From: Akkermansiaceae bacterium | GTDB taxonomy: Bacteria; Verrucomicrobiota; Verrucomicrobiia; Verrucomicrobiales; Akkermansiaceae | Assembly (NCBI GenBank): GCA_013001695.1 | Contig: JABDMC010000359.1 | Coordinates: 1-37,044 of the forward strand | Length of the DNA stretch: 37,044 nucleotides | Direction: 5' to 3' | Part shown: positions 5,267 through 30,870 of the stretch, piece after piece | How the letters are laid out: each line of letters opens with the position of its first letter | Numbering within the stretch: the stretch's first letter is position 1 | Position numbers and translations under genes: made by a program | Notes under the pieces: generated by a model | Databases searched by the model: none | Told to the model about the DNA's origin: nothing | The model's input: the letters and a program-made list of their open reading frames with translations, nothing else

Positions 5267-5287
5267 GGGATGAGGCGGTTGAGATGA

Positions 5288-5797: not shown

Positions 5798-5817
5798 AAT
5801 GGGGAATCTAGATTGAA
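5798..5817. promoter_or_regulatory. 20-bp divergent spacer between yceD and aat with a 10-bp palindrome
   Basis: The two start codons face away from each other with only 20 bp between them. In the spacer AATCTAGATT (5805-5814) is a perfect palindrome. Core promoters for both genes must therefore lie partly inside the opposite coding sequence, and mRNAs are probably leaderless or nearly so. A role for the palindrome as an operator is inference. Confidence 0.35.
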
Positions 5818-6486
5818 ATGAAGGCCGGGCGGAACGAAATTCGGCCTGTGGATCGGATTCCCCCCCATGTCCTGATAGGTGCCTACACGGAGGGAGTCTT
5901 TCCCATGGCGGAGAGCGGGGAGATCCTGTGGTTCTCGCCGTTGAAGCGCGGGGTGATCCCGCTCGACGACCGGTTTCACATTCCCCACGGCCTGAAGCGC
6001 ACGCTGAAGCGGGGGCGATTCGAGGTGCGGCGCGACACCGCCTTCCGCGCCGTGATGGAGGGATGCGCGGACCGGTCCGAAACCTGGATCGATGATGTCA
6101 TCATCGACAGCTACTGCCGGCTGCACGAGTTGGGATTTGCGCACTCGGTGGAGTGCTGGGACGAGGACGGGTTGCAGGGGGGGCTCTACGGGGTGGCGCT
6201 GGGACGCGCCTTCTTCGGCGAGTCGATGTTCTCCCTGAAAGCCGACGCCAGCAAGGTGGCCCTCGTCGGCCTGGTCGAGTGGCTGCGCGCGAACGACTTC
6301 CTGCTGCTCGATTCGCAATGGATGACGGATCACCTCCGCCAGTTCGGGGGCGAGGAGATTCCGCGCGAGGAGTACCTCAGGCGTTTGGATGAAGCCCTGC
6401 TAGATGCCGGTGAAGGTGACGGGGATCGTCAAGCAGAAGGGCCTGAGTCCGAGCCAGCGCGGCGCGAGGGTGGTATCCCCAGGTGA
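5818..6486 (+). CDS. aat: Leucyl/phenylalanyl-tRNA--protein transferase
   Basis: A 222-residue enzyme that transfers Leu or Phe from aminoacyl-tRNA to proteins with N-terminal Arg or Lys, marking them for ClpS/ClpAP (N-degron pathway) in the cytoplasm. The family motifs are clear: 'YTEGVFPMAE', 'ILWFSPLKRGVIPL', 'TWIDDVIIDSYCRLHELG', 'GGLYGVALGRAFFGESMFS', 'ASKVAL' and 'LLLDSQWMTDHLRQFG'. The N-terminal segment before 'LIGAYTEG' is shorter than in E. coli, and the ATG at 5818 is the only start that keeps that motif. After the usual end ('RRLDEAL') there is a poorly conserved tail of about 28 residues. That tail and the last conserved helix lie in a 110-bp tail-to-tail overlap with the HAD phosphatase gene. 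Confidence 0.94.
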   Translation: MKAGRNEIRPVDRIPPHVLIGAYTEGVFPMAESGEILWFSPLKRGVIPLDDRFHIPHGLKRTLKRGRFEVRRDTAFRAVMEGCADRSETWIDDVIIDSYCRLHELGFAHSVECWDEDGLQGGLYGVALGRAFFGESMFSLKADASKVALVGLVEWLRANDFLLLDSQWMTDHLRQFGGEEIPREEYLRRLDEALLDAGEGDGDRQAEGPESEPARREGGIPR

Positions 6487-7366: not shown

Positions 7367-7396
7367 ATGAAACACGTCGCCATCCGTGTCTCATGA
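7367..7396 (+). CDS. Possible 9-residue leader peptide overlapping the FecR gene start
   Basis: ATG at 7367 opens a tiny frame, M-K-H-V-A-I-R-V-S, whose stop overlaps the FecR-gene start as ATGA (7393-7396). Such an arrangement can couple translation of the downstream gene to the leader. A weak GGA precedes the ATG, while the FecR start itself lacks a clear ribosome binding site. It could equally be chance, since the frame is short and its conservation is unknown. Confidence 0.25.
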   Translation: MKHVAIRVS

Positions 7397-14862: not shown

Positions 14863-17800
14863 TCAGGGATCGATCCTGACGACCGTCAGCCGGTAGATGC
14901 CGGTCCCGGCGAAGGCCGCGACATCGCTCAGCGTCACGGCCCCGTCGGCCAGGAGCGGTCCCGCGCTGGCGACCGTCGCGTAAGCGCCCCCCGCAGTGCC
15001 GGGGTGCAGCTGCAGTTCATAGAGGCGTCCGGCCTTGCCGTCGACGGTGACGGCAAAGCTGTTCCCGGTGCGCTCGACGGAGGTGGTGCGGAAGAAATCG
15101 AGCGGGTCGAGGGGATCGGTGCCGGCCTCGAACTCGTCGATGTTGACTTTCCCGTCACGATCCGGATCGGCGTCGTCCTCGGCGTCGGCGGGGTTGCCGG
15201 TGGCATCGATGATGGCCTGCCGGAAGGCGCTGAGCTCCGCGGATTCGGCCTCGTAGGTCACCGTGAAGGTGTTCAGCTTTCCGGCCTCCACCGTGACCGG
15301 CACCGTGAATCCTGAGAATCCCGGAATGTCGCTCATTTCGAGCGTGTGGGAGATGCCGGGAGTCAGGTTCACCACCACGTCGCCGTCGCTCCGTTCCGTC
15401 GGGTTGGGCAGGAGTTTCCACCGTGCGGCGGCGACCGCGGCGGGGTTCGGCGGGTTGGTTTCGATCAGGACCTGCAGGGCGCCGGGATCCGTGGAACTCC
15501 CGATGGTCACGGCGCTCGTCAGGGTAATCCCGCCGCTGGTGTTGTTGGCGCCCCCGTTGGCGCTGACCTCGGCGCGATTGAAGAGATCGATCACGCTGCT
15601 GTCGATGGTCCGGGCGAGGCTCGCGGCGGTGCCGCCGAGGAAGATCCCGGCCGGGAAGTAGGATCCGCCCTCGCGCTGCACGCACAAGGGGCCCCCGATG
15701 AAGCCGGCCCCCCCCCGGATCGCGGTGGTGGTGTAGATCCGGAACGGCGTGCCGGGGGAACTCTGGCCGGGAAGGCGGGTGAGCGCCGCCGCGGTCGGCG
15801 GGGTGGCGTGCATCCGCCCCTGCTTCGACGGCGAGATCCCGTTGATCGGATAGCCGACGAGCGTCTTGAGATCCGCCGACTCGAGGAACGGGTTCTGGTC
15901 CTCGTCGCTGGCGAGGAAACCGCTGAATCCTCCGCGACCGGCATCCTCGAGGAAGAACAGGGCGGCCACGTTGTTGTTCTGGGAGGCCGGCCCGAACTCG
16001 CCCGGGGTGCCCTCGGCCCGGCGCTGGCCGGCGTAGTCGTCGAAGAGGTAGAACCCGCGCGGCAGCTGGGGCCCGGGTTCGTAGGTGCCCTTGTCGCGCT
16101 GGAGCAGCCACTGCACGCCGGTGGTGGCGGTGAGGGATTCCTCGTCGATGACGACCTGCGCGGCGGTGGCCACCACCCGCGGCTTCACGACAAACCCCGA
16201 ATGCGAACCGCGGTCGCTCCGGATCTGCCCGACAAAGCCGTAGGGGAGGTCCTGGCTGGTGGTGACCGTCTCGAAGGAGAGCACCTCGGGAGGGTTGAGG
16301 GTGGGCGCACCGGGCCGCAGGTAGGCGATGGTGACGGTGGCGAGGCCGCCGTTGGTGACGAACACGTTGGCCGGCGGCGGGGTGTTCTCCCCGGGAACCG
16401 GCTTGCACTCGACGAGGTAACTTCCGCCGGGGAGGTTCGCGAGTTCGGTGCCGGAGTCGCGCCACGCGGGGTCGGTCCCGCCGAGCAGGCGCCACTGGGC
16501 GCGCGAGTCGACCGGGACCTCCGGGCCGGTGAGCGCCGCGGGCGCGAGGGTGACCCGCAGCCGTCCGCCGGCGGGAGTGGCCGCCAGGTAGTAGAACCGG
16601 TCGACCACCACGGGGGCTTCCCCGCTGACGACCGCCACCGATTCCGGGAGCGGTTGGATGAACCCGGGGACCGGTTGGAACTCGATCTGCCGGTCGCCGG
16701 TCGGCAGGCCGCTCACCGTCGCGCCGGACGGGCGCCACGCGGATTCGCCGGCAAAGCGCCATGCCCCGGTGCCGGCGGGAAGGAGGTTGACCTGCAGCGA
16801 CCCGGTGCGCTGGCTTTCCGGAACGACCCGCGTGAAACTCTGGCGGAGGCCGAGAAGGGCGTCGAGCTGCAGCGGGAGAGTGGCGCCCACCGCTTCGGCG
16901 CCGCCGCCGGGGCGGACGGCGCGCACCCGGTAGAAGTAGGTCGGGCGGAGTTCGCCTTCCTGGAGGTTGGTGAACACCGCGCTCACCGGAACCTCGAGGT
17001 TGCCGTTCACCGGGGCGACCTCGATGCTCGTCGGGAAGGTGAGGCCGTCGGTCCCGAGGTCGAAGAACACCCGCGTCTCCGTGCCGCGCGGGCGCACCAC
17101 CCCGGTGACCCGGGCGCTCGATTGCGATTGCGCCTCGGCTTCGCCAGTGACCGCCTCCGGGGCCGGGAAGCCCGCCGTGAAGGTCCGGTCGTCGCCAAAG
17201 GTCGTCCCGAGGCTGTTGGAGGCCGCCATCCGGTAGTGGTAGAGCGTCCCGGGGACGAGCCCCTCGACGTCCTGGAGGATGAGTTGCGGGGTGGTGCCGT
17301 TGCCGGCGCCCCGCGGGACGGTGGTGCGGCCGTAGCCGGGCGTCAGGCCGTACTCGAAGCGCACGAAGGTCGTGCCGTCGTTCGGGTTGACCGTCCCGAG
17401 GAGGGTGGCGGATGTCGGGGTGATGTCCTGCGCGGCCCCGGTGGTGACGTCCGGCGGGTTGTCGGCCATGCCGTCGGTGCCGCCGGGCACCGTCGTGGGC
17501 GTGAAGGCCACCGCCTGGCTGACGGTGAAGACCTGCCCGCCCTGCGCCGCCACGAGGCGATAGCAGTACTCCCGCCCCTCGATGAGGCCGGTCACGGTGG
17601 CGGTGACTTCCTGGATTCCGTTGATGGCGAGGACTTGCTGGGGCGGCGTGGTGTTGTCGTAGCTGTTGTCCAGCCCCCACTCGAAGAAGACGTCGAAATC
17701 GCGGCCCTGGGGATCGACCGCCCCGATGAAGGTGGCCTGCGCGGTGGTGACTCCGGAGGGATCGCCGACGGCCGTGAGGGGCCGCGGGGTCAGGGTGGTG

Positions 17801-20800
17801 AAGGTCCCCGTGTCGCCGAAGATCGTGCCGCCCGGGGTCTGGATGGCGAGGCGGAACTGGTAATCGGTGCCCCCGATGAGATCCATGAGCGGGGCCTGCA
17901 CCGGCACGGGGACGCCGCCGCTCACCAAGACCGGCGAGGTCGATTCGGCGAAGGTGCCCGCCGGGCCGTACTGGAAGAAGACCGCCGCGGGTCCGTTCGG
18001 CACGACCGAGGCGTTCAGGGTGGCACTCACGTCCGTGATGTCGGTGACCGCCTCGGTCTGCTGCGTGGGTGCCGGACGGCGCGTGATGGTCACGCTGTAG
18101 CTGCGCGAGGCGTTCCCGTCGCCCGCGGTGACCACCACCGGGATGGCGTTGGCGCCGACGGTGAGCGGGAGGGAATCGCTCTCGGGGCCGGTCAGCGCCA
18201 CGCCGTTCACCTCGATGGCCGACTGGGCGTTCGGCGCGATCTGGGGGGTGGGCGCGACGGTGACGCTCGACACGAAGTGCGGCACCGAGGCGGTGTAGGA
18301 GAGGATGGAGGGGTTGAAGCGCGGACTGAGGACCGGTTCGAAGAGGCTCGCGTTCACGACGAGGTCGGCGAGGTTCGGGTTCGTCGACGGGCGGACCACG
18401 ATCTGGCTGACGGTGCTGTCCGCCGATCCGCTGATGCTCACGGCGCGGGCCCGGTAGCGGACCGGGGCGGTGACGGGGGGCGTGGTGAAGCTCGCGGCGG
18501 TGGCTCCGTCGATGAGGGTCGCGGTGGTGCCGTCGACCTCGAACCACTGGAAGCCGGGCGCCGGCGTGCCGCTGGCCTGCACCGCGAGGGTGGTCGTGAG
18601 CCCGAACTCGACTTCCCGCACGGGCGGGAGGTCGCGGGTGATGGCGGGCGCGGTCCCGGTCACGTTGAGGGTGAGATCCGCGGTGGCGGTGGCGCCGTTG
18701 ATCGTGGCGGTGATGGGAATGACATAGGCGCCGGCCACGTCGGGGGTTCCGGTGAGCAGGCCGCTCGACGGATCGAGCGAGACACCGGACGGAAGACCCC
18801 CGGCGGCCGGACCGAAAACGAGGCCCGGTCCGACATCATCGCTCATCACCTGGTAGTTCACGGGAGTGTTGACCGCAACGGTGATCGTGTCGGGCAGGAG
18901 GGTGAGGGTCGGTGCGGAGACGATGGCGAGCGGCCGGCTGTCGGCGCCGCCGCTGTTGGCGGCGCGCATGGTGACCTCGAACCGGCCGGCTTCCTCGGGG
19001 GTGCCCGAGATCGCTCCGGTCAGCGGGTCGAGCGACACCCCCGGCGGCAGGTCCCCGAGGACCGCGAAGCTCTCGGCGCCGGCGGCCGCGATCTGGTAAT
19101 CGAGGAACTCGCCGCGGGTGACGAGGACCTCGCTCTCCGACGTGATGACCGGGGGCGGCACGATCTCCGCGTAGGTGAACGTCACGGTGAGGAGTTCGCC
19201 GCCGGTGACCGTGACCGCCGGGGCGGCGGGGGGCTGGAAGCCGGGAACGGTCGCGAAGGAGAGGCCGTAGAGGTTCGGGTTGAGGTCGTCGAGGCGGGTC
19301 CCGCTGGCGAGATACGCCCCCTGGCTGCTGATGCGCCAGCCGGCACCCGCGGCGCGGGCCGCGGCCGGCTCGATGATGACGCGCAGGGACCCGAGCACCG
19401 CGGGGGAGATGTCGGTGACGGCCTGGTCGGTGATCATCCCGCCTGCACCACCGATCCCGGCGTCGCCGCTGGCTTCCGCGAAGCCGATGAGGTTCACCAC
19501 GTCGCTGTCGATGGCGCGTACCACCGTCTGGGCCGTTCCGCCGAGGTAGATGGCGGCCGGGTAATACGACCCGGTGGGATGCAGGACGCAGAGCGGCCCG
19601 CCGGAGTTGCCGCCGGTGCTGCTGATTCCGGAGGTCGTGTAGGTTTCCCCGAACGCCGGCGTGAAGGTCACCGGGCCGATCGGGGTGGCGTGCATGCGAT
19701 TGAGGTTCGTGCCGGTGGTCCCGTCGACCGGGTAACCGACGAGGGTCATCGGGGCCGTGGAGACGAGAAACTCGTTCTCGATGGCATCGCTGGCGAGGAA
19801 GCCGCTGAACCCGCCGCGGCCGGCGTCCTCCGGGAAGTAGAGAGTGGCGGCGTCGAGCGTCTGCGATTGCGGGGTGGAGGTGCCGGGGGAGTCGTCGGCC
19901 TCGCGCTGGGCCTCGTAGCCGGTCAGCAGGTAGAATCCCCGCGGGATTTGCGGCACCGGCTCGTGCACGCCGGCCTGCCGCTGGAACCGCCACTCGAGAC
20001 CGGTGGCGGCCTGCAGGGTGCCGTCGTCGAAGACGGCGTGCCCGACGGTGGCGACCACCTTGGGACGCACCACGAAGCCGCTGCTCAGGCCGGCGTCGCT
20101 GCGCAGCTGCCCGGCAAACGGGTAGGGGAGGACTTCCGTCACCGAGACATCGGCGAACGGCAGGACCCGCGGGAGACGTCCCAGCGGGGACTCCGCGAGG
20201 AAGTAGGTCACGGTGCCCGTGGCGGTCCGGGCCTCGAGGACCTCGACGGTGATCGGGGACGGGGTGGTGCGTCCGGCGACCGGCTTGGCCTCGATGACAT
20301 AGTCGCCGGGAACGAGACCGCCGAGGGTGGTGCCGCTGTCTTTCCAATCGGCGTCGGATTCGCCCAGGAGGCGCCACTGGGACCGCGCCTCGACCGGGTT
20401 GGCCGGGTTGGCGAGGGACCCGGGCTGCAGGACCACCGTGAGGTCGCCGCTGCCGGTGGCGGCCGGGACGTAGGCCCGCTCGAGGAGCAACGGCGGATCG
20501 CCGCTGACGATCGAGAGGGCTTCCACCGGCGGCTGGATGAAGCCGGGGACGGGACGGAACTCGATGGCGCGGTCGCCGGTCGTCAGGCCGGCCGCCGCCT
20601 CCCCGGATTCGCGCCACAGGACTTCACCGACGAACCGCCAGGCGCCGAGGCCGCCGCCCGACGCCAGGTTCACCCGGACCGAGGCGTTCCGGTCGGCGGG
20701 GGGGACCGGCGCGGGGAAATTCTGGAACAAGCCGGAAAGGCTCGCGACCCGGAAGCTGCGGGTGGCCCCGGTTCCCGAAACGCTGTCGGGCGCGGTGCCC

Positions 20801-23800
20801 GTGACGGCGCGCACCCGGTAGTGGTAGGTGGTCGCCTGGGCGAGGTTCTCGAGGACCGCCTCGACCGGCCGGAGGATGTTTCCGGACACGCTGCCGGGCG
20901 TGGCGGTCGTGCTGAACGGGAAGGTGATGCCGTCGGTGCCGTATTCGACGGTGACCGCCGCGGAGGGGCTGCGGGCCCGCACCGCGCCGCGCACCAGCAC
21001 GCTGGTGGTCGTCAGGGCGATGGCGGGGCCGGTCTGCGCCTCGGGCGGGGCGAACTTCGTGGTGAAGCTGCCGGTGGCGCCGGCCACCGACCCGAGGCTG
21101 TTGGTGGCGACCGGACGGAAGAAGTACTTCCGCCCCGGGAGGAGATTGGAGGCGGGAATGGTGGTGAGGACATCCTGGTCGGCGCTGCCGATCCCCTGGA
21201 GCGGCGTTTGCTGGCCGAGGTTGGCGGTGGTGGTGCCGTAATCGAAGCGCACCACGGTGGTGCCCCCCCTGGCATTCACGGTGGCCTGCAGGAAGGCGCC
21301 GTTGGCCGTGACGAGATCGGCGGAATCGGTCACCACCGTCGGCGGGGCGGTCGGTTCGCCGTTGCCCGGGCCGCTGTCGCCGCCCGCCACGAAGTTGTTC
21401 TCGCCCTCGTTCGACATGCCGGTGACGCTCATCGCAACGAGACGGAACCGGTAGGTCTGGCCGTCCTCGAGGCCCTCCACCGTCGCGGTGACATTCGTCA
21501 GGCCGAAGGTCCCCGCCGGGATGGTCTGCTCGGGCGTCTGGTTGCCGAAGAGGTTGGTGGTGCCGTACTCGAAGAAATACTTCGTTTCGAGCCCGCGCGG
21601 ATCGACCGCGCCGACGAGGGTGGCGGTGTTGGTGGTGACCCCGACGGCATTTCCCGTGGCCGCCACCGGCGGATCGGGAAATGTCGTGAAGGTGGCGTCG
21701 TCCCCGAAGATCGTGCCGTTCGGACCCATCGTCACGATGCGGTAGTGGTAGGTCACCCCGCCGGTCAGCCCCGCGAGGGGCGAAAGGAGATTCACGATCC
21801 CGGGACCCGAGACGAATTGCTCGGCGGTCTCCAGCCCGTAGCCGGTATCGGTCCCGTACTGGAAGTACACCGTGACGTCGCCGTTCGGGATGACGGTCCC
21901 GTTCAGCACCGCGGCGGTGTCGGTCAGGTCGGTCACCGACCCGGTCACCGCGGTGGTCGGCGGGACGCGGGTGATCTCGACGGTGTAGGTCTCCTGCGTG
22001 ATGCCATCGAGGGCGGTCACCACGATCGTGACGGTGTTGTCGCCGACCGCGAGGGGAATGGGCGGGCTGGAGGCGCCGGAGGGCACCGGGGTCCCGTTCA
22101 CCACGATGCTCGCCGCGGGTTCCGCGGCCTCGGGGGTCACGGTGAGACTTTCGGTCGCATTCGGGACCACCGCGTCATAGTCCGTGATGAATCCGCTGAA
22201 GGGGGGAGCCAACTCGACGGCCTCGGGAACGGTGTCGGGCACGAGGGGCGGGAAGAAATCGAGGGCGCTCAGGAGCGCGTTCGAGGATTGCACCACGTCG
22301 ATCAAGGCCACGTTGCTGTCGGCCGCGCCGGAGGCGTTCGTGGCCCGGGCGAAGAACCTCCCGGTGGCGAAAAGCGGAGGCGTGACAAAGGTGGCGGAGG
22401 TCGCCCCCGGGATCGCGGTCACGGCCTCCCCGTCAACCTCATACCACTGGATGTCCGGCGTCGGCACCCCGATGGCTTCCACCGTGAGGGTGGCGCTCGT
22501 CCCGCCGGAGATGACCTGGCCGGCAATCGGATCCGCAGTGATGAGCGGGGCCGAGGCCGGAAAATCGGCGGCGAAGAGGTAGGCTGCGCCCGCATTTGGC
22601 GCGCTGTTGTCGGCCTGGTTGCCCCCGACCCCGTTGCCCGCCTCCCAGCGGGCTCCGGAGACGATGAGCTCGTTCGAGACCGCGACGGCGTGGCCGAAGT
22701 TGTCGAAGGCGTCCGTGTTGGATGCCTTGAGATAGCCCGCGCTCGACCACGAGGACCCGCTGCGGGTGAAGAGGTAGGCGGCGCCGGCCTTGCTCGCGCT
22801 GTTGTCGAGGGCATTGCCGTTGAGACCCGTGGCGCTGCTGTCTTCCTCGCTGCTGCCCACCACGATGGTGTCCCCGGAGATGCCGATCGTCCGCCCGAAG
22901 AGATCGGTCGCCTCGGTGTTGGAGGCCTTCAGGTAGGCTTCCTGGTCCCAGCCCTCGCCGTTGAAGGCGAAGACGTAGGCCGCGCCCGATTGCCCGGCAT
23001 TGTTGTCGGCCTGGTTGCCGTCGACGCCGGTTGCGGCGCTGTCCTCGGCGGGGGAGCCGACCACGACGGTTTCCCCGGAAATCCCGACCGCCCATCCGAA
23101 GCTGTCGGATGCGCCGGCGTTGGATGCGGTGAGAACGGTCTCGGCGCTCCAGGTGGCTCCCGATCGCCGGAAGACGGCCGCCGCCCCGGCATTCAGCGCC
23201 GCGGGCGAGACGAGGTCCTTGCCGGGGATCCCCACCACGATGCGGTCGCGCGAGATGCCGACCGCGTAGCCGAACTCGTCCGAGTTCGCCGGGCTGGCGG
23301 CCTTGAGGTAGGCCTGCTGGTTCCATGCGGTCCCGGTCCGCTGGAACACGTAGGCGGCGCCCGCATTCGGGAGACTATCGTCGGCCTCGTTGCCATCGAT
23401 GCCCGGGGCGGCACTCGCCTCGGCCGACGCGCCGATCACGACGGTGTTGCCGGCGATGGCGACGGAGATCCCGAATCGGTCGTCGGCGTCGGGATTGGAC
23501 GCCTTGAGGTAGGCCTCCTGGCTCCAGGTGTTGTTGTTGCGGACGAAGACATAGGCGGCGCCGGCGTTCCCGGCGCTGTTGTCGTTCTGGTTGGCGCCGA
23601 CGCCCGCGGCGCCCCCGTCTTCAAAGTAGGCACCCACCACGATGGTGTCGCCGGAAATGGCCACCGTCTGTCCGAATCGATCGTCGGGGTCTGTGTTGGA
23701 CGCCTTGAGGTAAGCCTCCTGTTCCCACGATTCCCCGTCGAAGGTGAAGACATACACCGCGCCGGCGCGCACCGCGCTGTTGTCGTCCTGGTTGCCGTTC

Positions 23801-26800
23801 ACGCCGGTCGCGGAGCTGCCCTCGAAGGGCGCCCCGACCACCACCGTGTTCCCCGAGACCGCCACCGCGCTGCCGAACCAGTCGTCGGCACCCGTGTTGG
23901 ACGCCTTCAGGTAGGCCTGCTGCGCGATGGCCAGCGGCGAGAGGCCGGTGCCGGTCAGTTCGATGACGAACGGGCCCCCGGGGTCATTGCTCGGCAGGGT
24001 GAGGGTGGCGGAGCGGACCCCGGCCACAAGGGGAATGAAGCGCACATCGAAGAACCCGGTCCCGCCGGGCGGAATGCTCTCGCCGAAGGACGTCGTCACG
24101 GAGAATTCGCCGGGGCTGCCGGTGAGGTCCACGCCGAGGATCTCGAGGGGAAGCTCGCCGTCGTTCCTGATGTGGAAGGTGGTGGGATCGTTGCTGCCGT
24201 CCCCGATGAGCACGCTGCCGAAATCGCGGCTGCCGCCGTTGGCGAGGCCGCTGCCCGCCGGTTGCTCGATCACCAGCTCCGGCCCGCCCGGCGAAACGGT
24301 GGCCGTCTGGCTGTCGGCGAATCCGAATCCGTTGCTGGCGCGCACCCAGAAGTCGGTGGGGGCATTGATCGGCGGGGTGGTGAAACCGGGTCCGGTCTCA
24401 TCGGGAACGGGATTGGAGGTGTCGCCGCTGAGACCCTGATACCACTGGAAGCCGGGCGTTGGGTCGCCGGCCGCCGTCACGGTGAGATTGGCGGATCCCC
24501 CCGCCGGGACGAACTGCGCGGCGAGCGGTTCCGCCGTGATGACAGGCGCGCTGCCCGGAATGCCGGTCACCGTGGCGGTGATGGTCTGGTTGTCGTCGTA
24601 GTCGACGAGGTAGGTGTATCCGTCGGAGGACGTGAAGGTCGTGTCGTCCTGGATCGAGGCGGTCCCGTCGGGAGTGAGAAAGAGGCCGAGGGGGGCGGCG
24701 AAAATCCAGTCGACGAGCGGGATGGTTTCGCCGATTTGGAGGAAGTCGGGGGCGACGATGTCGAGGCGGATGGCGTTCGGTTCGCCGCTCTGGTAGTTCT
24801 CGATACCCACCGCGGGGGACTCGATGGGGGAGAAGGGGCGGGAGGGATCGTAATGGAAGCGCCACGTGATGGCACTCGGCCCGAGGCTGTCGCCGTCGGC
24901 GTCGGGCAGGATGCCGGAGAGGGGCGTCAAGAAGCCCGGCGGCGGCGGGGTCGCGGTCAAGAGGATGCCGAGGGTGGCGCCGCCGCCGAAGTAGTCGAGG
25001 GTCGCATCGCCGCCCACCACCGATCCGAAGAGGAGGCCGTCGAAGAAAGCCGCGTTGGCATCCGCCTCGAGCCGGAGGGTGGCGGGTGGCGCCCCCTCCG
25101 CGCCGATGACGCGGGAGGCGCTGAAGGCCGTCAACGATCCGCCCGAGACGTGCAGGGCGCCGGTTTGGATCTCGAGGGCGTGAATCTGGGCCGACCCGGC
25201 GAGGAGGACCGGCGAGGGGCTGCTGATGACGACCCGGTCGGTGTCGTCGGGAACGAGGTCGAAGGACCAGTTGGCGGGGTCATTCCAGTCGGACCCGTCG
25301 CCGAGGCCCGTCCAGAGGCGGTCCGTGATGGCCGGGAAACCGATGAAACCGGCGCCGGTGGCGGTGAAGCTCACGTTGCCGCGGCGCTGCTGGAGTTGCG
25401 GCAGGAGGACCTGGCCGTCGAAGGCTTCGACAATGAGGGTGCCCGTGCCGGGGCCGTCGAGGAGCACGAGGTTTGGCAAGGAGAGCACGCTCCCGGGTCC
25501 GTCGGCCTGCAGGCGGGTGGTCTCCGTGGAGGCGTAGGTGGTGACCATGGGCAGGTTGAGCGTCGCCCCGTCGGACAGGAAGATGCTGGCGTTGTCGATG
25601 TTGGCCAGCAGGGGGGAATCGAGAAGGCCCGAGCCGGCGACGGTGAGGTCCCCGTCATGGAAGTCGGTGAGGAGCGGGGCGAAAATTTCCCCGCCGAACT
25701 GGGCCGTGAACCCGCCCCCGCCGGGACCCTCCCCGGCGAAGGCCGTCAGGGAACCGAGGTCGATGATCGAGCCGCCGTATTCGCCGCCGGCGCCGGAGGA
25801 TTCAAAATGGACGTTTCCGGACTGGCTGACGAGGGCGGGCATGTCGACGCGGCCGCCACCGAAGGCCTGCACGTCGAGCCGGGCGCCATTGACGGTGTTG
25901 GAAATCGCGCTGAGTGCCGAGAGGACGATTTCGCTGCCGGGTCCGGTGGCGCGGATCTCCCGGTCGCCGGTGTGGGAATACGATGCGAGGGCCGGCAGAG
26001 CGATGCCGGCGCCGGCCAGCGCGTAGCAGCCGGCGTCCTCGAGGACGGTCGCACCGGTCGCCGCGAGCGTGGTTCCGTTGCCGGTCACGGTGAGGGTGGT
26101 GCCGGCCTGCAGTTCGAATGGCCCGGAAAGGACGGAAGCCCCCTGGGTGAGCTCGAGCGAGCCGTTGGCGACGATCAGTTCCTCCGCACACTCGATGCGG
26201 GCGATGCTGACGGGGGTGTTGATGGTGATGGTCGGGGTGCCGTCGACGTTGATGATGACCACTTCGCCGGGGCCGGGGACGATGTTCCCGCGCCAGTTGC
26301 CGGGATCTTCCCAGCTCGTCCCGTCCCCGCCGCCGGTCCAGGCGGCGACGACCGTGGCGGCAATGGCCCCGTCGAGGTCGTAGTCGATCCGGAAGGCGGC
26401 CGCGGGCGTGTTGATCGTCTCGCCGTCGAAGACGGGACTGCCGTCGGGACGCTGGAACTCGCCTGAGTAGAAGCCGGCGTGATCCACGAGCGGGAAGGAA
26501 TCGCCCAGTTGGAAGGGGCGGCCGGTCGAGACGATCTCGAGGGTGATGGAGGGGAGGGAGGCATTCTGGAAGGCGGTGAGTTCCAGCCCGGCGCGGCATT
26601 CGATCGGCGTGAAGGGCTGGTCCGGGTCGATCCGGAAGATCCATCGAATGTCGCTGGGGGAGGCGGCGAAGAGATCCGCGTCCGGCGCGATGCCGCTCGG
26701 TTCCGGCGCGCCGAAATTCCCGAAGCCGGTCAGGGGGCTGTGGGCGAACTCGAGAATCGCATCGCCGCCGTAGGGGCCCCCGAAGCGGATCCCATCTTCG

Positions 26801-27198
26801 AATCCCGCGAAGGCACCGCTCTCGATGATGAGTCGCCCGTCGCCCCCGAGGCCGCCCACCCGCGGGATGTCCGGCGCTCCCGCCTCGGCGTCGATCAGGC
26901 CACCCGGAAGGATTTGCAGCGTGCCGGAGGTGGAGGTCAGGAAGGGATCCCCGATCTGCAGCCCCCGAACCAGGGCCCCGGTGGAAAGTTGGGCGACGCC
27001 GTCATCGCGGATGAGGATATCCTCCGCGGGACCGGCACCCGGCGCGACGCCGGTATCCCAGTTGGAGCCGTCCTCCCATGCCCCCACTCCGGGGGTGATC
27101 CACTCCGCGGCGTGGAGGGGAAGCAGGCCGAGCAGGACGGTCAGGATGAGGAAGCAGGAGGGCGCAAGGGTGCGCCTTGGGATCGGAGGGATTCGCAT
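14863..27198 (-). CDS. Giant secreted multidomain protein with tandem trypsin-like protease and pseudoprotease
   Basis: 4111 residues with a Sec signal peptide (about 1-31). Three beta-rich modules start with 'W.G.GDG..W.DP.NW'-like motifs (near residues 33, 287, 629). Then come an Ig-like domain (~883-968), an ASH-like domain (~972-1085), a seven-repeat beta-propeller (~1093-1544) and two copies of a long module (~1553-2676 and ~2850-3984) separated by two putative-Ig (He_PIG-like) domains. Each module runs Ig, cadherin-like sandwich, four Fn3-like repeats ('YGT...YG'), PEGA-like repeats, trypsin-like domain, PEGA-like. Copy 1 has His2387 ('ATVGHAVF'), Asp2449 ('DAATLYF') and Ser2532 ('GNSGGPL'); copy 2 has Gln3681, Asn3743 and Ile3834. 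A calcium-binding 'DPDRDGKVNIDEFEAGTDP' and a beta domain end the protein; no PEP-CTERM, LPXTG or barrel is seen. Likely a surface or extracellular adhesin-protease; substrate unknown. Confidence 0.85.
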   Translation of the reverse strand: MRIPPIPRRTLAPSCFLILTVLLGLLPLHAAEWITPGVGAWEDGSNWDTGVAPGAGPAEDILIRDDGVAQLSTGALVRGLQIGDPFLTSTSGTLQILPGGLIDAEAGAPDIPRVGGLGGDGRLIIESGAFAGFEDGIRFGGPYGGDAILEFAHSPLTGFGNFGAPEPSGIAPDADLFAASPSDIRWIFRIDPDQPFTPIECRAGLELTAFQNASLPSITLEIVSTGRPFQLGDSFPLVDHAGFYSGEFQRPDGSPVFDGETINTPAAAFRIDYDLDGAIAATVVAAWTGGGDGTSWEDPGNWRGNIVPGPGEVVIINVDGTPTITINTPVSIARIECAEELIVANGSLELTQGASVLSGPFELQAGTTLTVTGNGTTLAATGATVLEDAGCYALAGAGIALPALASYSHTGDREIRATGPGSEIVLSALSAISNTVNGARLDVQAFGGGRVDMPALVSQSGNVHFESSGAGGEYGGSIIDLGSLTAFAGEGPGGGGFTAQFGGEIFAPLLTDFHDGDLTVAGSGLLDSPLLANIDNASIFLSDGATLNLPMVTTYASTETTRLQADGPGSVLSLPNLVLLDGPGTGTLIVEAFDGQVLLPQLQQRRGNVSFTATGAGFIGFPAITDRLWTGLGDGSDWNDPANWSFDLVPDDTDRVVISSPSPVLLAGSAQIHALEIQTGALHVSGGSLTAFSASRVIGAEGAPPATLRLEADANAAFFDGLLFGSVVGGDATLDYFGGGATLGILLTATPPPPGFLTPLSGILPDADGDSLGPSAITWRFHYDPSRPFSPIESPAVGIENYQSGEPNAIRLDIVAPDFLQIGETIPLVDWIFAAPLGLFLTPDGTASIQDDTTFTSSDGYTYLVDYDDNQTITATVTGIPGSAPVITAEPLAAQFVPAGGSANLTVTAAGDPTPGFQWYQGLSGDTSNPVPDETGPGFTTPPINAPTDFWVRASNGFGFADSQTATVSPGGPELVIEQPAGSGLANGGSRDFGSVLIGDGSNDPTTFHIRNDGELPLEILGVDLTGSPGEFSVTTSFGESIPPGGTGFFDVRFIPLVAGVRSATLTLPSNDPGGPFVIELTGTGLSPLAIAQQAYLKASNTGADDWFGSAVAVSGNTVVVGAPFEGSSATGVNGNQDDNSAVRAGAVYVFTFDGESWEQEAYLKASNTDPDDRFGQTVAISGDTIVVGAYFEDGGAAGVGANQNDNSAGNAGAAYVFVRNNNTWSQEAYLKASNPDADDRFGISVAIAGNTVVIGASAEASAAPGIDGNEADDSLPNAGAAYVFQRTGTAWNQQAYLKAASPANSDEFGYAVGISRDRIVVGIPGKDLVSPAALNAGAAAVFRRSGATWSAETVLTASNAGASDSFGWAVGISGETVVVGSPAEDSAATGVDGNQADNNAGQSGAAYVFAFNGEGWDQEAYLKASNTEATDLFGRTIGISGDTIVVGSSEEDSSATGLNGNALDNSASKAGAAYLFTRSGSSWSSAGYLKASNTDAFDNFGHAVAVSNELIVSGARWEAGNGVGGNQADNSAPNAGAAYLFAADFPASAPLITADPIAGQVISGGTSATLTVEAIGVPTPDIQWYEVDGEAVTAIPGATSATFVTPPLFATGRFFARATNASGAADSNVALIDVVQSSNALLSALDFFPPLVPDTVPEAVELAPPFSGFITDYDAVVPNATESLTVTPEAAEPAASIVVNGTPVPSGASSPPIPLAVGDNTVTIVVTALDGITQETYTVEITRVPPTTAVTGSVTDLTDTAAVLNGTVIPNGDVTVYFQYGTDTGYGLETAEQFVSGPGIVNLLSPLAGLTGGVTYHYRIVTMGPNGTIFGDDATFTTFPDPPVAATGNAVGVTTNTATLVGAVDPRGLETKYFFEYGTTNLFGNQTPEQTIPAGTFGLTNVTATVEGLEDGQTYRFRLVAMSVTGMSNEGENNFVAGGDSGPGNGEPTAPPTVVTDSADLVTANGAFLQATVNARGGTTVVRFDYGTTTANLGQQTPLQGIGSADQDVLTTIPASNLLPGRKYFFRPVATNSLGSVAGATGSFTTKFAPPEAQTGPAIALTTTSVLVRGAVRARSPSAAVTVEYGTDGITFPFSTTATPGSVSGNILRPVEAVLENLAQATTYHYRVRAVTGTAPDSVSGTGATRSFRVASLSGLFQNFPAPVPPADRNASVRVNLASGGGLGAWRFVGEVLWRESGEAAAGLTTGDRAIEFRPVPGFIQPPVEALSIVSGDPPLLLERAYVPAATGSGDLTVVLQPGSLANPANPVEARSQWRLLGESDADWKDSGTTLGGLVPGDYVIEAKPVAGRTTPSPITVEVLEARTATGTVTYFLAESPLGRLPRVLPFADVSVTEVLPYPFAGQLRSDAGLSSGFVVRPKVVATVGHAVFDDGTLQAATGLEWRFQRQAGVHEPVPQIPRGFYLLTGYEAQREADDSPGTSTPQSQTLDAATLYFPEDAGRGGFSGFLASDAIENEFLVSTAPMTLVGYPVDGTTGTNLNRMHATPIGPVTFTPAFGETYTTSGISSTGGNSGGPLCVLHPTGSYYPAAIYLGGTAQTVVRAIDSDVVNLIGFAEASGDAGIGGAGGMITDQAVTDISPAVLGSLRVIIEPAAARAAGAGWRISSQGAYLASGTRLDDLNPNLYGLSFATVPGFQPPAAPAVTVTGGELLTVTFTYAEIVPPPVITSESEVLVTRGEFLDYQIAAAGAESFAVLGDLPPGVSLDPLTGAISGTPEEAGRFEVTMRAANSGGADSRPLAIVSAPTLTLLPDTITVAVNTPVNYQVMSDDVGPGLVFGPAAGGLPSGVSLDPSSGLLTGTPDVAGAYVIPITATINGATATADLTLNVTGTAPAITRDLPPVREVEFGLTTTLAVQASGTPAPGFQWFEVDGTTATLIDGATAASFTTPPVTAPVRYRARAVSISGSADSTVSQIVVRPSTNPNLADLVVNASLFEPVLSPRFNPSILSYTASVPHFVSSVTVAPTPQIAPNAQSAIEVNGVALTGPESDSLPLTVGANAIPVVVTAGDGNASRSYSVTITRRPAPTQQTEAVTDITDVSATLNASVVPNGPAAVFFQYGPAGTFAESTSPVLVSGGVPVPVQAPLMDLIGGTDYQFRLAIQTPGGTIFGDTGTFTTLTPRPLTAVGDPSGVTTAQATFIGAVDPQGRDFDVFFEWGLDNSYDNTTPPQQVLAINGIQEVTATVTGLIEGREYCYRLVAAQGGQVFTVSQAVAFTPTTVPGGTDGMADNPPDVTTGAAQDITPTSATLLGTVNPNDGTTFVRFEYGLTPGYGRTTVPRGAGNGTTPQLILQDVEGLVPGTLYHYRMAASNSLGTTFGDDRTFTAGFPAPEAVTGEAEAQSQSSARVTGVVRPRGTETRVFFDLGTDGLTFPTSIEVAPVNGNLEVPVSAVFTNLQEGELRPTYFYRVRAVRPGGGAEAVGATLPLQLDALLGLRQSFTRVVPESQRTGSLQVNLLPAGTGAWRFAGESAWRPSGATVSGLPTGDRQIEFQPVPGFIQPLPESVAVVSGEAPVVVDRFYYLAATPAGGRLRVTLAPAALTGPEVPVDSRAQWRLLGGTDPAWRDSGTELANLPGGSYLVECKPVPGENTPPPANVFVTNGGLATVTIAYLRPGAPTLNPPEVLSFETVTTSQDLPYGFVGQIRSDRGSHSGFVVKPRVVATAAQVVIDEESLTATTGVQWLLQRDKGTYEPGPQLPRGFYLFDDYAGQRRAEGTPGEFGPASQNNNVAALFFLEDAGRGGFSGFLASDEDQNPFLESADLKTLVGYPINGISPSKQGRMHATPPTAAALTRLPGQSSPGTPFRIYTTTAIRGGAGFIGGPLCVQREGGSYFPAGIFLGGTAASLARTIDSSVIDLFNRAEVSANGGANNTSGGITLTSAVTIGSSTDPGALQVLIETNPPNPAAVAAARWKLLPNPTERSDGDVVVNLTPGISHTLEMSDIPGFSGFTVPVTVEAGKLNTFTVTYEAESAELSAFRQAIIDATGNPADAEDDADPDRDGKVNIDEFEAGTDPLDPLDFFRTTSVERTGNSFAVTVDGKAGRLYELQLHPGTAGGAYATVASAGPLLADGAVTLSDVAAFAGTGIYRLTVVRIDP
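15240..18655 (-). repeat. Module B of the tandem duplication in the giant gene (pseudoprotease copy)
   Basis: Residues ~2850-3984. It parallels module A domain by domain: Ig ('QWFEVDGTTATLI' here, 'QWYEVDGEAVTAI' there), cadherin-like, four Fn3-like, PEGA-like ('EFQPVPGFIQP' here, 'EFRPVPGFIQP' there) and trypsin-like ('DAGRGGFSGFLASD' in both). The offset between copies is 1294 residues up to the Asp site and 1302 at the Ser site, showing a tandem duplication that has since diverged. Confidence 0.85.
19165..22545 (-). repeat. Module A of the tandem duplication in the giant gene (intact protease copy)
   Basis: Residues ~1553-2676, with the same domain order as module B. Catalytic residues His2387, Asp2449 and Ser2532 are all present, spaced 62 and 83 residues apart, compatible with a chymotrypsin/glutamyl-endopeptidase fold. 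In copy 2 the first spacing is the same (62). Confidence 0.85.
22568..23922 (-). repeat. Seven tandem repeats encoding a beta-propeller
   Basis: Residues ~1093-1544 hold seven units of about 67 residues, each with 'YLKASNT...D.FG..VAISG.T.VVG' followed by 'NAGAAYVF...'. The fourth is shorter (about 58). The pattern fits FG-GAP/integrin-alpha-like blades, and seven is the classical blade number. In most units 'GxxGNQ.DN' has Asp/Asn suited to calcium binding, though that is inference. The DNA copies have diverged enough to be distinguished. Confidence 0.85.
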
Positions 27199-27277: not shown

Positions 27278-27994
27278 TCAGTGAGGAAGAACGGGACGGC
27301 GGCGGTGGAAACCGGCGAGGGCCGCGACGATCAGGAGGAGCCCGGCGGCGGGCTCGGGAATCAAAACGACCTCCTGGGCGAGCTCGGCGCCGATGAGGGT
27401 CAGCGGCCCGACGGCGAATCCTCCGCCGGGATTGGCGAAGCGGGCGTTGCCCGGACTGGCGGGGATCCCCGAGGGGCTGTTGTGGGTGAAGAACTGCCCG
27501 GCGACGGTGCTGGCCGCCACGGGAGCGACCCCCAGCCAGTACGTTCCGGCGGTGGGGAGGAGGATGTCGAGGTTGAGGCTGACCAGTCCGTATTCGTCCG
27601 AGATCGCCGGGGCGAAGGGAATCACGGAGACCCCGGCGCCGGGAGCCAGCAGGACGCTGGCAATGTCGCCTTCCAGTCCGGCGCCTGCCGCGGCGGGATC
27701 GGAGAAGACGCTCACCTGGTAGCCGGTGACCTCCTGGAAGGAGGGAAAGCCCCCCTGGGCGCGGAGGAGGGTGGTGACATTGACGATCCGGCGCTGGGTG
27801 GCGGCGACGGCGAGGTCATCGATCGACATCGAGCTGAAGCCCGGGAAGTCGGTGAAGATCTGGCTGACGTTGGGAGTGACCGCTTCGGATGGGTCGAAGG
27901 TGGCGGGGTCCGGGATGGCTCCGGGGAAGACCGCCGCGCCGCGGGCCGGAAGGCCGGCCACCGTGAACACAAGGAGGAGGATCAATATTTTCAT
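27278..27994 (-). CDS. PEP-CTERM domain exported protein
   Basis: A 238-residue protein from the ATG at 27994 (MKILILLLVFTVAGLPARGAA), a clear signal peptide; an ATG nine codons upstream is possible but would spoil the n-region. The C-terminus is a textbook PEP-CTERM tripartite signal: 'PEP' in 'VLIPEPAAG', a hydrophobic helix 'LLLIVAALAGF' and basic 'HRRR'. Such proteins are exported and processed by an exosortase (EpsH/XrtA type) and often join the extracellular matrix. The middle is a beta-rich domain ('AGTYWLGVAPVAASTVAGQFF') resembling 'choice-of-anchor' type domains. The giant secreted gene starts 79 bp downstream on the same strand, so both may be expressed together. No exosortase gene is in this window. 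Confidence 0.88.
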   Translation of the reverse strand: MKILILLLVFTVAGLPARGAAVFPGAIPDPATFDPSEAVTPNVSQIFTDFPGFSSMSIDDLAVAATQRRIVNVTTLLRAQGGFPSFQEVTGYQVSVFSDPAAAGAGLEGDIASVLLAPGAGVSVIPFAPAISDEYGLVSLNLDILLPTAGTYWLGVAPVAASTVAGQFFTHNSPSGIPASPGNARFANPGGGFAVGPLTLIGAELAQEVVLIPEPAAGLLLIVAALAGFHRRRPVLPH

Positions 27995-28370
27995 CAAGGA
28001 CGCTGGCGGTTGAATTCCCAATGGGGGCCGGCCGATGACAGGATCCGGCCGGGGATTTCCGCGAGCGCGCTCGCAACACCGGTGGCGCCCTCCATCCCGG
28101 AATCATTGGATGCATTCCGGAACGGAAACGATGTCCGCCCATGTTGATTTCCCCCACCAACCCTGATCGGTTTTGGTATATTCAGGACTTGAGAAAACTC
28201 ACATCTTGGCAAGCACAATCGGGGTGTAGATCCTCTGGAGATCAAGGAAGGATGCTAGTGAACCACCGCGGATAATTAATGCCCTCCACGGAACCCGCGC
28301 GCGCTTCGCGCCGGAATTGGCGGGTCGAGCCGCGCCGGAGCCCGGGCCGGGGAGGGACGGCGGGAGAATT
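27995..28370 (-). other. 376-bp intergenic region with hairpins before the PEP-CTERM gene
   Basis: No gene is supported here. The part proximal to the PEP-CTERM start contains three inverted repeats: an imperfect stem around 28027-28053 (CCGGCCGAT paired with ATCCGGCCGG, one bulge), a perfect 14-bp palindrome GCGAGCGCGCTCGC at 28061-28074, and a 7-bp stem CCGGAAT/ATTCCGG at 28097-28120. The distal part (about 28140-28280) is AT-richer, with TATATTCAGG and GATAATTAAT words, and is the likely place for the promoter. A structured 5' leader is possible, but none of this matches a riboswitch class that I know. Confidence 0.35.
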
Positions 28371-29144
28371 TCAGGCGGGTTTCCCGTCGTGGCCGTTCTC
28401 TTCGGCGAGGCGACGCAGGGCGGCGTGCGCGAACATGGGGGTGAGGCCGGGAAAGACGGAGAGGAGGCGGGCGAGGAGGCCGGTGAGGTGGGCCGCCGCG
28501 AAGCTGCTGCCGGTGAGCACCGCGGAACTGCCCGACGGGGCGAGCACCGGGATGTCCACCCCGGCGGCGGCGAAGGAGATGAGGCTGCCGTGGCGGAAGC
28601 GCAGTTCCTCGGGAGCGAGATGGTCTCCCGTCACGGCGAGCACCTGCGCCAGCGACGCCGGCCAGTGGGACTCGTCGGGATCGGCGTTGGAGGAGGCCGC
28701 CACCACGTGCCGGTCGCGTTCGAAGGCGTGGTCGGTCCATGCCTTGTACACCGGCAGGGTGAAGGCCGCCCCCGGGATGCCGAAGGAGCAGTTCAGGATG
28801 GTGGCGCCCTCCTCGATGGCGTAGAGGGCCCCGAGCTTGACGACCTCGTGGCGATGCTGGCGCTTCTTGCAGTCGAGGACGCATATGCTCTGCATCTCGG
28901 TTTCCGGCGCGAGGGCGTGGATGATGCCGGCCACCGCGGTGCCGTGCCCGAAGGCGTCCTCCGGCGCGCACTCCCCGACGCGGAAGCCGTTCGGGGCCGC
29001 CTGCACGGCCTGCGCCTGGAGAAAGCCGGCCCCGGACAGCCGGGGATGCTGCTCGTCGATGCCGGTGTCGAGGATCGCGACCCGCACGCCGCGACCGGTG
29101 CCGGACCGGCAGGCGCTTCGAATGGCGTCGAGGTCAGGCCACAT
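28371..29144 (-). CDS. Minimal S8 (subtilisin-like) serine peptidase without leader
   Basis: A 257-residue subtilase. Asp26 ('AILDTGIDEQHP'), His67 ('FGHGTAVAGI') and Ser214 ('LTGSSFAAAHLTG') make the catalytic triad, and Asn153 ('ASSNADPDESHWPA') is the oxyanion Asn; the order Asp-His-Ser is that of clan SB. The ATG at 29144 lies only 4 nt after the GAF gene stop. There is no signal peptide and no I9 propeptide, and the whole protein is barely the catalytic core (typical domains are 275 or more residues), so it is probably cytoplasmic and held in check some other way. Co-transcription with the GAF protein, and the divergent sigma/anti-sigma-like pair, suggest a regulated intracellular protease. 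Its substrate is unknown. Confidence 0.9.
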   Translation of the reverse strand: MWPDLDAIRSACRSGTGRGVRVAILDTGIDEQHPRLSGAGFLQAQAVQAAPNGFRVGECAPEDAFGHGTAVAGIIHALAPETEMQSICVLDCKKRQHRHEVVKLGALYAIEEGATILNCSFGIPGAAFTLPVYKAWTDHAFERDRHVVAASSNADPDESHWPASLAQVLAVTGDHLAPEELRFRHGSLISFAAAGVDIPVLAPSGSSAVLTGSSFAAAHLTGLLARLLSVFPGLTPMFAHAALRRLAEENGHDGKPA

Positions 29145-29148
29145 CGAC

Positions 29149-29643
29149 TTATTTCTCCGGGCCGGCGGCCGGGAGGGATCGATCGAGGATTTCGGCCACC
29201 TGCTGGGCGGTGTGCTCCAGTTCGGCGAGGTGGGCGGGCTCCAGCTCTTGGGTTTGGGATCCACCCTCGACCTGCACGGCGGAGAGAACTCCGGCCACGT
29301 CGGCATCCGAGAAGATCGGGGCCGCCATCATGGCCGTGGTGCGCTGCCCGACGATGGAATCCACGGTGGGATCGTGCGCGGTGCGCTGGGTGACATCGGA
29401 CTCGAGCAGCGGCAGGCCGGTGACGAAAACCTGGGAGATGAGCCCCCGGTCGAGCGGCTGGCGCATGCCCTCGAACCCCGCCGCCCGGGGATTGTGGATG
29501 GCCTCGAGGAAATGGCCCTCCTCGCTTTCGACCCAGACGGTCGCCTCGTCGGCCGGGATGCGGGCCAGCAGGTCCGCCACACACTGGAAATCGTCGGGAC
29601 TCCCCCGGGAGGGACCGGGCGGCGGCTGGGATTCGTCGGCCAT
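29149..29643 (-). CDS. GAF domain protein
   Basis: A 164-residue soluble protein. After a short Pro-rich N-terminus, residues ~18-150 read as a single GAF domain: 'LLARIPADEATVWV', 'RGLISQVFVTGLPLL' and 'RTTAMMAAPIFSDADVAGVLSAVQ' are the recurring GAF pattern (G-x-x-x-x-V and 'M..API'). GAF domains bind small ligands such as cyclic nucleotides, haem or redox signals, or mediate protein contacts; the ligand here cannot be read from sequence. No output domain is attached. The 4-nt spacing to the S8 peptidase suggests the two products are made together, so the GAF protein may control the peptidase. It starts 62 bp from the divergent sigma factor gene. Confidence 0.85.
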   Translation of the reverse strand: MADESQPPPGPSRGSPDDFQCVADLLARIPADEATVWVESEEGHFLEAIHNPRAAGFEGMRQPLDRGLISQVFVTGLPLLESDVTQRTAHDPTVDSIVGQRTTAMMAAPIFSDADVAGVLSAVQVEGGSQTQELEPAHLAELEHTAQQVAEILDRSLPAAGPEK

Positions 29644-29654
29644 CAGTTATCATT

Positions 29655-29670
29655 GAATCCCCAAGGATTC
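29655..29670. promoter_or_regulatory. Perfect inverted repeat in the shared sigma/GAF promoter spacer
   Basis: GAATCC-CCAA-GGATTC is a perfect 6-4-6 inverted repeat in the only 62-bp spacer between the GAF and sigma factor start codons, near the GAF start. A second short palindrome, CGATATCG, is at 29679-29686. A regulator binding here could affect both directions. This role is inferred from position only. Confidence 0.4.
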
Positions 29671-29705
29671 GGAATTGTCGATATCGGATTGAGCAATCTA
29701 GTCTC

Positions 29706-30431
29706 ATGTCCATGGATGAGGGGCAATTGCCGGACGAATCTCCCGCTCCGCCGCGTTATGCGGAGGAACTCGAGATCGCGTTGGCGGCCCTCGACGGGGA
29801 AGAGCAGGCGGTCCAGGCCGTGAAGGCCATCCTCGACGATCCCGCCCTGCGTCGCTGGCTGGTGGCGCGCGGCGCGTCCGCCGCGGAAGCCGACGAGCTC
29901 TTCGGGGACCTCCTGACCGATTGCTTCGCGGGTCGGAAGAAGTCCGGGGAGATGAACCGCCTCCTCGGCCGCTACAACGGCGCCTGCAAACTGCAGAATT
30001 TCCTCCGCCGGGTGGTCTTGAACCGCTTCATCGACCGCAAGCGGCGCGCGCCGGATGTCGTGAGCCTGCCCACCGAATCGGACGAGGACGACGGCCGGGG
30101 CGGGAGGGAACTGGCGGCCCCCAGCGGGATCGACAGCGAAGATGCCATCAGCCAGATCCTGGTGGATGCCGTGCGGCGGGCCTTTGCCTCGGTCGACCAG
30201 GAAAAGCTGGTCCTGTTCCGCCTGTTTCACTCCTACCAGATTTCCCAGCAGCGCATCGCGGCGATGTGGGGGTGGCATTACAGCAAGGTGAGCCGGGCCC
30301 TGACCGGCCTCTGTGAAGAACTCCGGGACGGGATCATGGCCGAGGTGCGTCAGGCTGACCCATGGCTCCAGCTGGAGTGGGAGGATTTCGTGGATCTCTG
30401 CGGGGATTCCCTCGATCTGTTCGATTATTGA
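29706..30431 (+). CDS. ECF-like sigma-70 family RNA polymerase sigma factor
   Basis: A 241-residue protein. Region 2 is seen around residues 60-115 ('ADELFGDLLTDCFAG', 'LQNFLRRVVLNRFIDRKRR'), and region 4 around 158-215 ('KLVLFRLFHSYQISQQRIAAMWGWHYSKVSRALTGL') with a helix-turn-helix. It has no region 3 or region 1.1, as in ECF (extracytoplasmic function) sigma factors. An acidic N-terminus and an acidic C-terminal tail ('WEDFVDLCGDSLDLFD') are unlike the shortest ECFs and may contact a partner. ATG at 29706 or 29712 are both possible. The small anti-sigma-like gene lies 55 bp downstream, and the GAF and S8 peptidase genes are divergent; self-regulation of the shared spacer is a reasonable inference. 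Confidence 0.85.
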   Translation: MSMDEGQLPDESPAPPRYAEELEIALAALDGEEQAVQAVKAILDDPALRRWLVARGASAAEADELFGDLLTDCFAGRKKSGEMNRLLGRYNGACKLQNFLRRVVLNRFIDRKRRAPDVVSLPTESDEDDGRGGRELAAPSGIDSEDAISQILVDAVRRAFASVDQEKLVLFRLFHSYQISQQRIAAMWGWHYSKVSRALTGLCEELRDGIMAEVRQADPWLQLEWEDFVDLCGDSLDLFDY

Positions 30432-30486
30432 GAAAAGAGGCGGAAATCTCTGCAAATGGACCGGGCGGGGCCGTTTACCCGGCGTC

Positions 30487-30726
30487 ATGAATCAGCCAAA
30501 CTCCATTGAAGCCTCACTCCGCGTTGTCGCGACCTTCTTCGACAAATTCGGGGCTCCCGTCGAGGGCCATGCCCGCGAAGACCTCACGCGGGAACAGCGG
30601 AGCCAGATCGAGCGGCTCGCTGCCGGGGACCTCTCCGATGAGGAACGGGAAACGATCGTCCCGCTCCTGATCCGGAACGAGGCCGCCATTGAACTTCTCG
30701 CCGCGACTGTGCCCGGGGACCGGTAG
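30487..30726 (+). CDS. Small acidic protein resembling a zinc-less anti-sigma domain (79 aa)
   Basis: The ATG at 30487 gives 79 residues ending 'LAATVPGDR'. Its second half, 'IERLAAGDLSDEERETIVPLL', follows the helical pattern of anti-sigma (ZAS-like) domains ('L..GDLS.EER..V..HL'). However, the His and Cys residues that bind zinc in ZAS proteins are absent and no TM helix follows, so it would be cytoplasmic. It follows the sigma factor by 55 bp on the same strand. A role as its antagonist is inference from position and helix pattern; I do not recognise a family. Its stop codon runs directly into hairpin 1 of the structured 3' region. Confidence 0.6.
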   Translation: MNQPNSIEASLRVVATFFDKFGAPVEGHAREDLTREQRSQIERLAAGDLSDEERETIVPLLIRNEAAIELLAATVPGDR

Positions 30727-30870
30727 GGTGGCTCACCGAGCCGCCTCATCCGGTCGACGTTGCAGTCGCACGGCACCAACGCACAGCCCAGCCGCATCCA
30801 TCATTCCACCGGGCAAACGATTTCGATGGATCGGCTGATGGAGCGGCCCTCTTCGGAGGGCCGTTTCCTT
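30727..30870 (+). ncRNA. Candidate structured RNA or structured 3' UTR of the sigma operon
   Basis: Three hairpins in a row. H1 (30727-30745) pairs GGTGGCTC with GAGCCGCC (one G-U, 3-nt loop) directly after the stop codon. H2 (30791-30835) pairs GCCG-C-ATCCATC with GATGGAT-CGGC, 11 bp with one bulged C around a 22-nt loop. H3 is the terminator below. H2 is too well paired for an ordinary spacer. It could be a 3'-UTR-derived small RNA or just mRNA stabilisation; I could not match it to tRNA, 6S or a riboswitch class. Confidence 0.35.
30844..30870 (+). terminator. Rho-independent terminator of the sigma operon
   Basis: A perfect 8-bp stem CGGCCCTC/GAGGGCCG closed by a TTCG tetraloop (30844-30863), followed by TTTCCTT. 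The T-rich tail exists only on the plus strand, so it ends the sigma/anti-sigma-like transcript (and the candidate RNA), not the convergent minus-strand gene. Confidence 0.8.

Follow-up and report, generated by a model that had tools for sequence, protein, structure and literature searches.

Four adjacent genes of an Akkermansiaceae bacterium, encoding a subtilisin (S8), a GAF protein, an ECF-like sigma factor and a 79-residue anti-sigma-like protein (S79), form a conserved module and represent a real system. S79 has a short VEGH-like motif in common with unrelated proteins that neighbour GAF-S8 pairs, a new finding that the original prediction for this DNA did not contain. The reading preferred here, with a probability of a little under 60%, is that GAF and S8 constitute a processing peptidase that reads this motif: a signal received through the GAF protein would lead to S79 being cut at the motif, and the sigma factor would be freed.

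Gene layout and the divergent spacer

Within the window (the whole stretch of 37,044 nt that was analysed), the minus-strand genes for S8 (257 aa; nt 28371–29144) and the GAF protein (164 aa; nt 29149–29643) are separated by 4 nt. They diverge across a spacer of 62 bp (nt 29644–29705) from the plus-strand genes for the sigma factor (241 aa; nt 29706–30431) and, after a gap of 55 nt, S79 (nt 30487–30726), which is zinc-less and is termed anti-sigma-like from its gene context and a predicted helical bundle. The motif, P-V-E-G-H-A at residues 24–29 of S79 (nt 30556–30573, plus strand), is the proposed site of cleavage or recognition. The positions of the four genes, the 4-nt gap and the 62-bp spacer were all as originally described. 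Elsewhere in the window, a PEP-CTERM protein gene (nt 27278–28021, minus strand) adjoins the gene of a giant, secreted-looking protein of 4111 aa with repeated modules (nt 14863–27198, minus strand).

The sigma factor matches TIGR02937 at 37.1 bits (E 2e-9; cut-off 42.9) and TIGR03001 at 36.8 bits, both below cut-off, and from its sequence is best regarded as a divergent ECF relative that probably works like one, rather than as a formal member. An inverted repeat in the spacer had been taken as a meaningful element. The repeats are weak, with arms of only 6–7 nt, and a regulatory role was rejected; a search upstream of 35 orthologous sigma genes for a recurrent bipartite motif gave nothing exceeding shuffles. 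No sigma70-type promoter was found in the spacer.

Linkage and spread of the module

About 60 Verrucomicrobiota loci were mapped using profiles made from the window proteins; some of the sequences surveyed are metagenome assemblies. Sigma homologues were found in 53 of 190 genomes of the same order, and the S8 subfamily in 51 of these 53 compared with 16 of the 137 without sigma (hand tally; nominal Fisher p 2e-29, a guide only, as the genomes are related). A GAF gene adjoins 52 of 53 S8 genes in the Verrucomicrobiota loci. No S79 gene stands apart from sigma and GAF: of the 40, 29 are within 1 kb of sigma, 30 of GAF and 19 of both. The neighbourhood search proposed along with the original prediction has thus found the homologues to be neighbours repeatedly, and the set of four recurs across families with gene order and strand varying freely. 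S79 remains with GAF-S8 where sigma is far away (L108, L111, L113, L114, L116–L118) and with sigma where GAF-S8 is far away (L103, L112, L115); in keeping to either partner it behaves as would be expected of a link between them. Chthoniobacter flavus has the module as well (L112).

A second module lies on contig C141 of the window's genome, whose only three S79 copies are all inside the two modules. Two FecR-domain proteins (PF04773) flank the sigma-S79 part of this second module (L043, nt 7571–8437 and 9727–10551, both minus strand). It is also adjoined by two small ORFs (nt 3149–3709, minus strand) that by eye resemble a BrnT-like toxin and its antitoxin, and ORF pairs of this type occur in L081 and L056 as well. 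In a wider scan, GAF-S8 pairs were also detected in Chloroflexota, Actinobacteria, Hyphomicrobiales and Deltaproteobacteria.

The S8 subtilisin and its GAF partner

S8 is a subtilase by its match to PF00082 (72.7 bits; Pfam cut-off 21.8). Among 20 relatives compared, the catalytic residues D26, H67 and S214 are invariant and the oxyanion residue N153 nearly so. All 20 begin shortly before the catalytic core and have neither propeptide nor signal peptide, and the profile match to mature subtilisin starts at about residue 20, which bears out the description of the enzyme as an intact, leaderless subtilisin of cytosolic type. The best NCBIfam match is to QhpE (NF049966; 96.8 bits, below the cut-off of 165), and no QhpC or QhpD genes were found among adjacent window ORFs or conserved neighbours. 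Family searches with the window protease gave no Lon or SAVED match. Viral relatives are at most 35% identical.

The GAF protein matches PF01590 at 34.7 bits (cut-off 22.4), and its predicted model (pLDDT 90) is closest to the cAMP-bound GAF structure 5w10 (E 9e-10), with GAF domains of PDE5, PDE2 and PDE6 among the next closest. It is proposed as the gate or adaptor of S8. Because of this nearest structure, and because both module contigs carry a CHASE2 cyclase, a cyclic nucleotide would be a reasonable first candidate for the ligand, and is offered as that and nothing further. The cyclase of the window (CHASE2-class III nucleotide cyclase, 703 aa; nt 11143–13254, plus strand; PF05226, PF00211) is a possible, weakly linked source of the signal. 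There are only two CHASE2 genes in the window's genome, one on each module contig, and by coordinates a cyclase lies close to GAF-S8 in this genome and in G155 and G068. A cyclase beside GAF-S8 was rejected as a general rule, the test being uninformative in Chloroflexota, where PF00211 genes are too abundant. Upstream of the window cyclase is a gene for a FecR-TPR-beta-barrel protein, also weakly linked (1246 aa; nt 7393–11133, plus strand; PF04773 and TPR/TonB-type matches).

Predicted resemblance of S79 to anti-sigma domains

Searches with S79 found no Pfam or NCBIfam family, including no Pfam anti-sigma family, and no significant PDB sequence match. The predicted model (pLDDT 80) has a helix at residues 5–21, a loose loop at 22–34 and a three-helix bundle at 35–74. 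The motif sits in this loop, which is exposed, joins helix 1 to the bundle and is a low-confidence block (pLDDT about 57). The three best aligned chains are all anti-sigma domains (MucA, DdvA), superposing with an rmsd of 2.3–2.5 over 46–48 residues compared with 9–11 for unrelated rows, although the similarity is weak (Z 2.9–4.1; Foldseek E not significant). The predicted likeness to zinc-less class I anti-sigma domains is suggestive and falls short of proof. S79 proteins have P-E-V-x-G-[RH] in common (A-P-V-E-G-H-A in the window), and after it comes a conserved helical part. In L105 three S79 genes stand in tandem beside one sigma gene (nt 5041–6137, minus strand).

A motif common to S79 and unrelated neighbours of GAF-S8

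Motif counts were made with the pattern [DE][VIT]x[GA][HR] on proteins clustered at 70% identity, with shuffles as background. The pattern is present in 20 of 28 non-redundant S79 proteins (0.68 in shuffles); the full form is missing from the other 8, and the window copy has P where most carry D or E. Since the pattern was extended to R and A only after S79 had been seen, the strict form [DE][VIT]xGH, which is close to the Chloroflexota repeats described below, is the fairer test, and it occurs in 7 of 28 (0.05 in shuffles). Controls were near background, with 7 of 47 GAF proteins (3.3 in shuffles) and none of 23 sigma factors (1.9). A strict 11-column PSSM built on the repeats of Chloroflexota could not tell S79 proteins apart from shuffles (8 of 39 at p ≤ 0.05; median p 0.23), and only the five-residue core is common to the two, the acidic flank not being shared. 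Neither the motif nor the GAF-S8 pair was found described in the open full-text literature that was searched.

Many GAF-S8 pairs outside Verrucomicrobiota are accompanied by small proteins with tandem DVEGH/DTEGH repeats, of which DDDDVEGHVHTRAS is an example unit. Same-strand matches to [DE][VT]EGH number 80 near GAF-S8 and 0 farther out in the same loci; 26 further matches are on the opposite strand, many of them inside coding-like ORFs. By our own count, coding-like ORFs with the motif are present in about 30 of 40 Chloroflexota and Actinobacteria loci. The Chloroflexota proteins hold up to seven motifs each. The repeat proteins of both groups look like multi-copy peptide precursors and are unannotated (L301–L339; for example L303, nt 2951–3487, plus strand, and L320, nt 3662–4051, minus strand).

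In a second kind of locus, GAF-S8 occurs without sigma and is followed by an L,D-transpeptidase (PF03734) with some 200 extra N-terminal residues (L078, nt 8477–9631, minus strand; L083, nt 9756–10892, plus strand; L072, nt 8191–9390, minus strand). Here the motif, E-[VIA]-[EQ]-[GA]-[HR]-G, stops a few residues before the most hydrophobic stretch of the protein, after which there is an A-x-A site, as in a buried signal peptide. The loose pattern is present in 7 of 8 of these enzymes (0.93 in shuffles) and the strict form in none, as they carry the R or A variants. Possibly their export is licensed by proteolysis.

L086 is a Verrucomicrobial RiPP cluster with genes for a radical SAM enzyme, an MNIO-like protein, GAF and S8, and is related to L119 of Hyphomicrobiales. 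Its precursor ends in EGDVEAHG-WCWRRNYFCNHWRRNCWRNHCR, with DVEAHG at the apparent leader-core junction. Precursors of the WRNCWRNC type are found in both groups (L086, nt 12737–13078, minus strand; L119, nt 4979–5338 and 8973–9308, plus strand), and the L119 MNIO matches HvfB/bufferin maturases below cut-off. No convincing motif partner was found near GAF-S8 in the Verrucomicrobiota loci L080, L084, L085 and L087.

Proposed mechanism and alternatives

The preferred reading is that GAF and S8 would together form a two-gene cytosolic processing peptidase recognising approximately [DE]-[VIT]-x-[GA]-[HR]. S79 would probably hold the ECF-like sigma factor by its N-terminal helix and its C-terminal three-helix bundle. 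On sensing a signal, which may be a cyclic nucleotide, the GAF protein would gate S8, and S8 would then cut the PVEGHA loop and part the two sigma-binding portions of S79, upon which the sigma factor would be released. This agrees with the link between transcription and proteolysis that was originally predicted, and the sigma/anti-sigma-like pair, then named as one possible target, can now be considered the likely one. We put at about even odds the broader reading that a single family of GAF-partnered cytosolic subtilisins, reading one motif of the approximate form [DE][VIT]x[GA][HR], has been wired in several phyla to four unrelated substrates: a RiPP precursor (leader removal), tandem-repeat precursors, an L,D-transpeptidase whose signal peptide is buried (licensing of export) and an anti-sigma-like protein (transcription).

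The motif might instead be a docking site for GAF or a third protein, so that tethered GAF-S8 degrades or processes something else. Co-occurrence of motif and GAF-S8 alone would be accounted for in this way, as would the many motifs of the Chloroflexota repeat proteins, but at the RiPP leader-core junction and ahead of the buried signal peptide the motif lies where a cut is needed, and docking is considered unlikely. Somewhat less probable again is a role for S79 not as an anti-sigma factor but as a small peptide precursor, or as an adaptor, that GAF-S8 makes into a signal, with sigma merely driving expression of the module. The precursor-like appearance of the other motif partners, the lack of a Pfam anti-sigma match and the tandem S79 genes of L105 would all suit this, yet S79 has a conserved helical part, predicted to be a MucA/DdvA-like bundle, and often directly follows sigma.

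In the scheme originally proposed, GAF would constitutively inhibit a protease that is dangerous if left unchecked, as part of a system for conflict or stress. This fits the adjacency of GAF and S8 but now appears very improbable. Partners across phyla resemble processed precursors, and QhpE demonstrates that a cytosolic subtilisin can limit itself (PMC7876137). A PADLOC search found no link to defence, returning only a generic subtilase model and weak IetS matches; as no specific model matched, a conflict or defence role was rejected. Chance association of four unrelated genes can be dismissed given the conserved linkage across genomes, and nothing was found in its favour.

Comparison with known systems

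The module belongs neither with its nearest functional parallel, CalpL/CalpT/CalpS, nor with its nearest protease, QhpE. The former consists of a Lon-SAVED protease, an anti-sigma factor and an ECF sigma factor of type III CRISPR, and in it a nucleotide second messenger gates the soluble protease CalpL, which cuts the anti-sigma factor and in this way acts on the ECF sigma (PMC11417357). The logic is the same as that proposed for the window genes. However, CalpL combines Lon and SAVED in one chain, in contrast to an S8 subtilisin with a separate GAF protein, and CalpT is a 33 kDa protein of CRISPR immunity, while S79 has 79 residues and no CRISPR link was seen.

QhpE, a subtilisin located in the cytosol, serves the maturation of quinohemoprotein amine dehydrogenase; it is encoded alongside its substrate, from which it takes off the leader peptide before export, and acts only once, in a suicidal (single-turnover) manner (PMC7876137). 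This precedent of single use means that constant inhibition is not the sole way to tolerate a subtilisin in the cytosol. Unlike QhpE, the window S8 scores below the family cut-off, is without QhpC/QhpD, and has a GAF partner and a sigma context. Subtilisin-type leader peptidases of RiPP pathways offer a further comparison, as the window S8 has a weak profile match to PatA and GAF-S8 pairs occur in the radical SAM/MNIO clusters L086 and L119. The window S8 differs in having a separate GAF partner and no fused modification domain; no RiPP genes were recognised in the window.

Class I anti-sigma domains grip sigma by means of a bundle of three helices together with a fourth that a flexible linker carries (PMC7406223). 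S79 resembles members such as MucA, RseA, RskA and DdvA in being small and helical and in lying beside an ECF-like sigma, and several of these proteins are freed by proteolysis, as is proposed for S79. It differs in having no transmembrane helix, and in the placing of the extra helix, which precedes the bundle in the S79 model, with the motif loop between, and follows it in known domains (PMC7406223).

Implications

If the proposed mechanism is true, narrow motif specificity would be the reason why the cytosol can harbour an active subtilisin that lacks a propeptide, and a small soluble anti-sigma switch would be added outside CRISPR. RiPP leader removal, protein export and control of transcription would all be tied to one motif-reading protease pair. 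The motif also provides a testable handle on the many unannotated DVEGH-repeat proteins of Chloroflexota.
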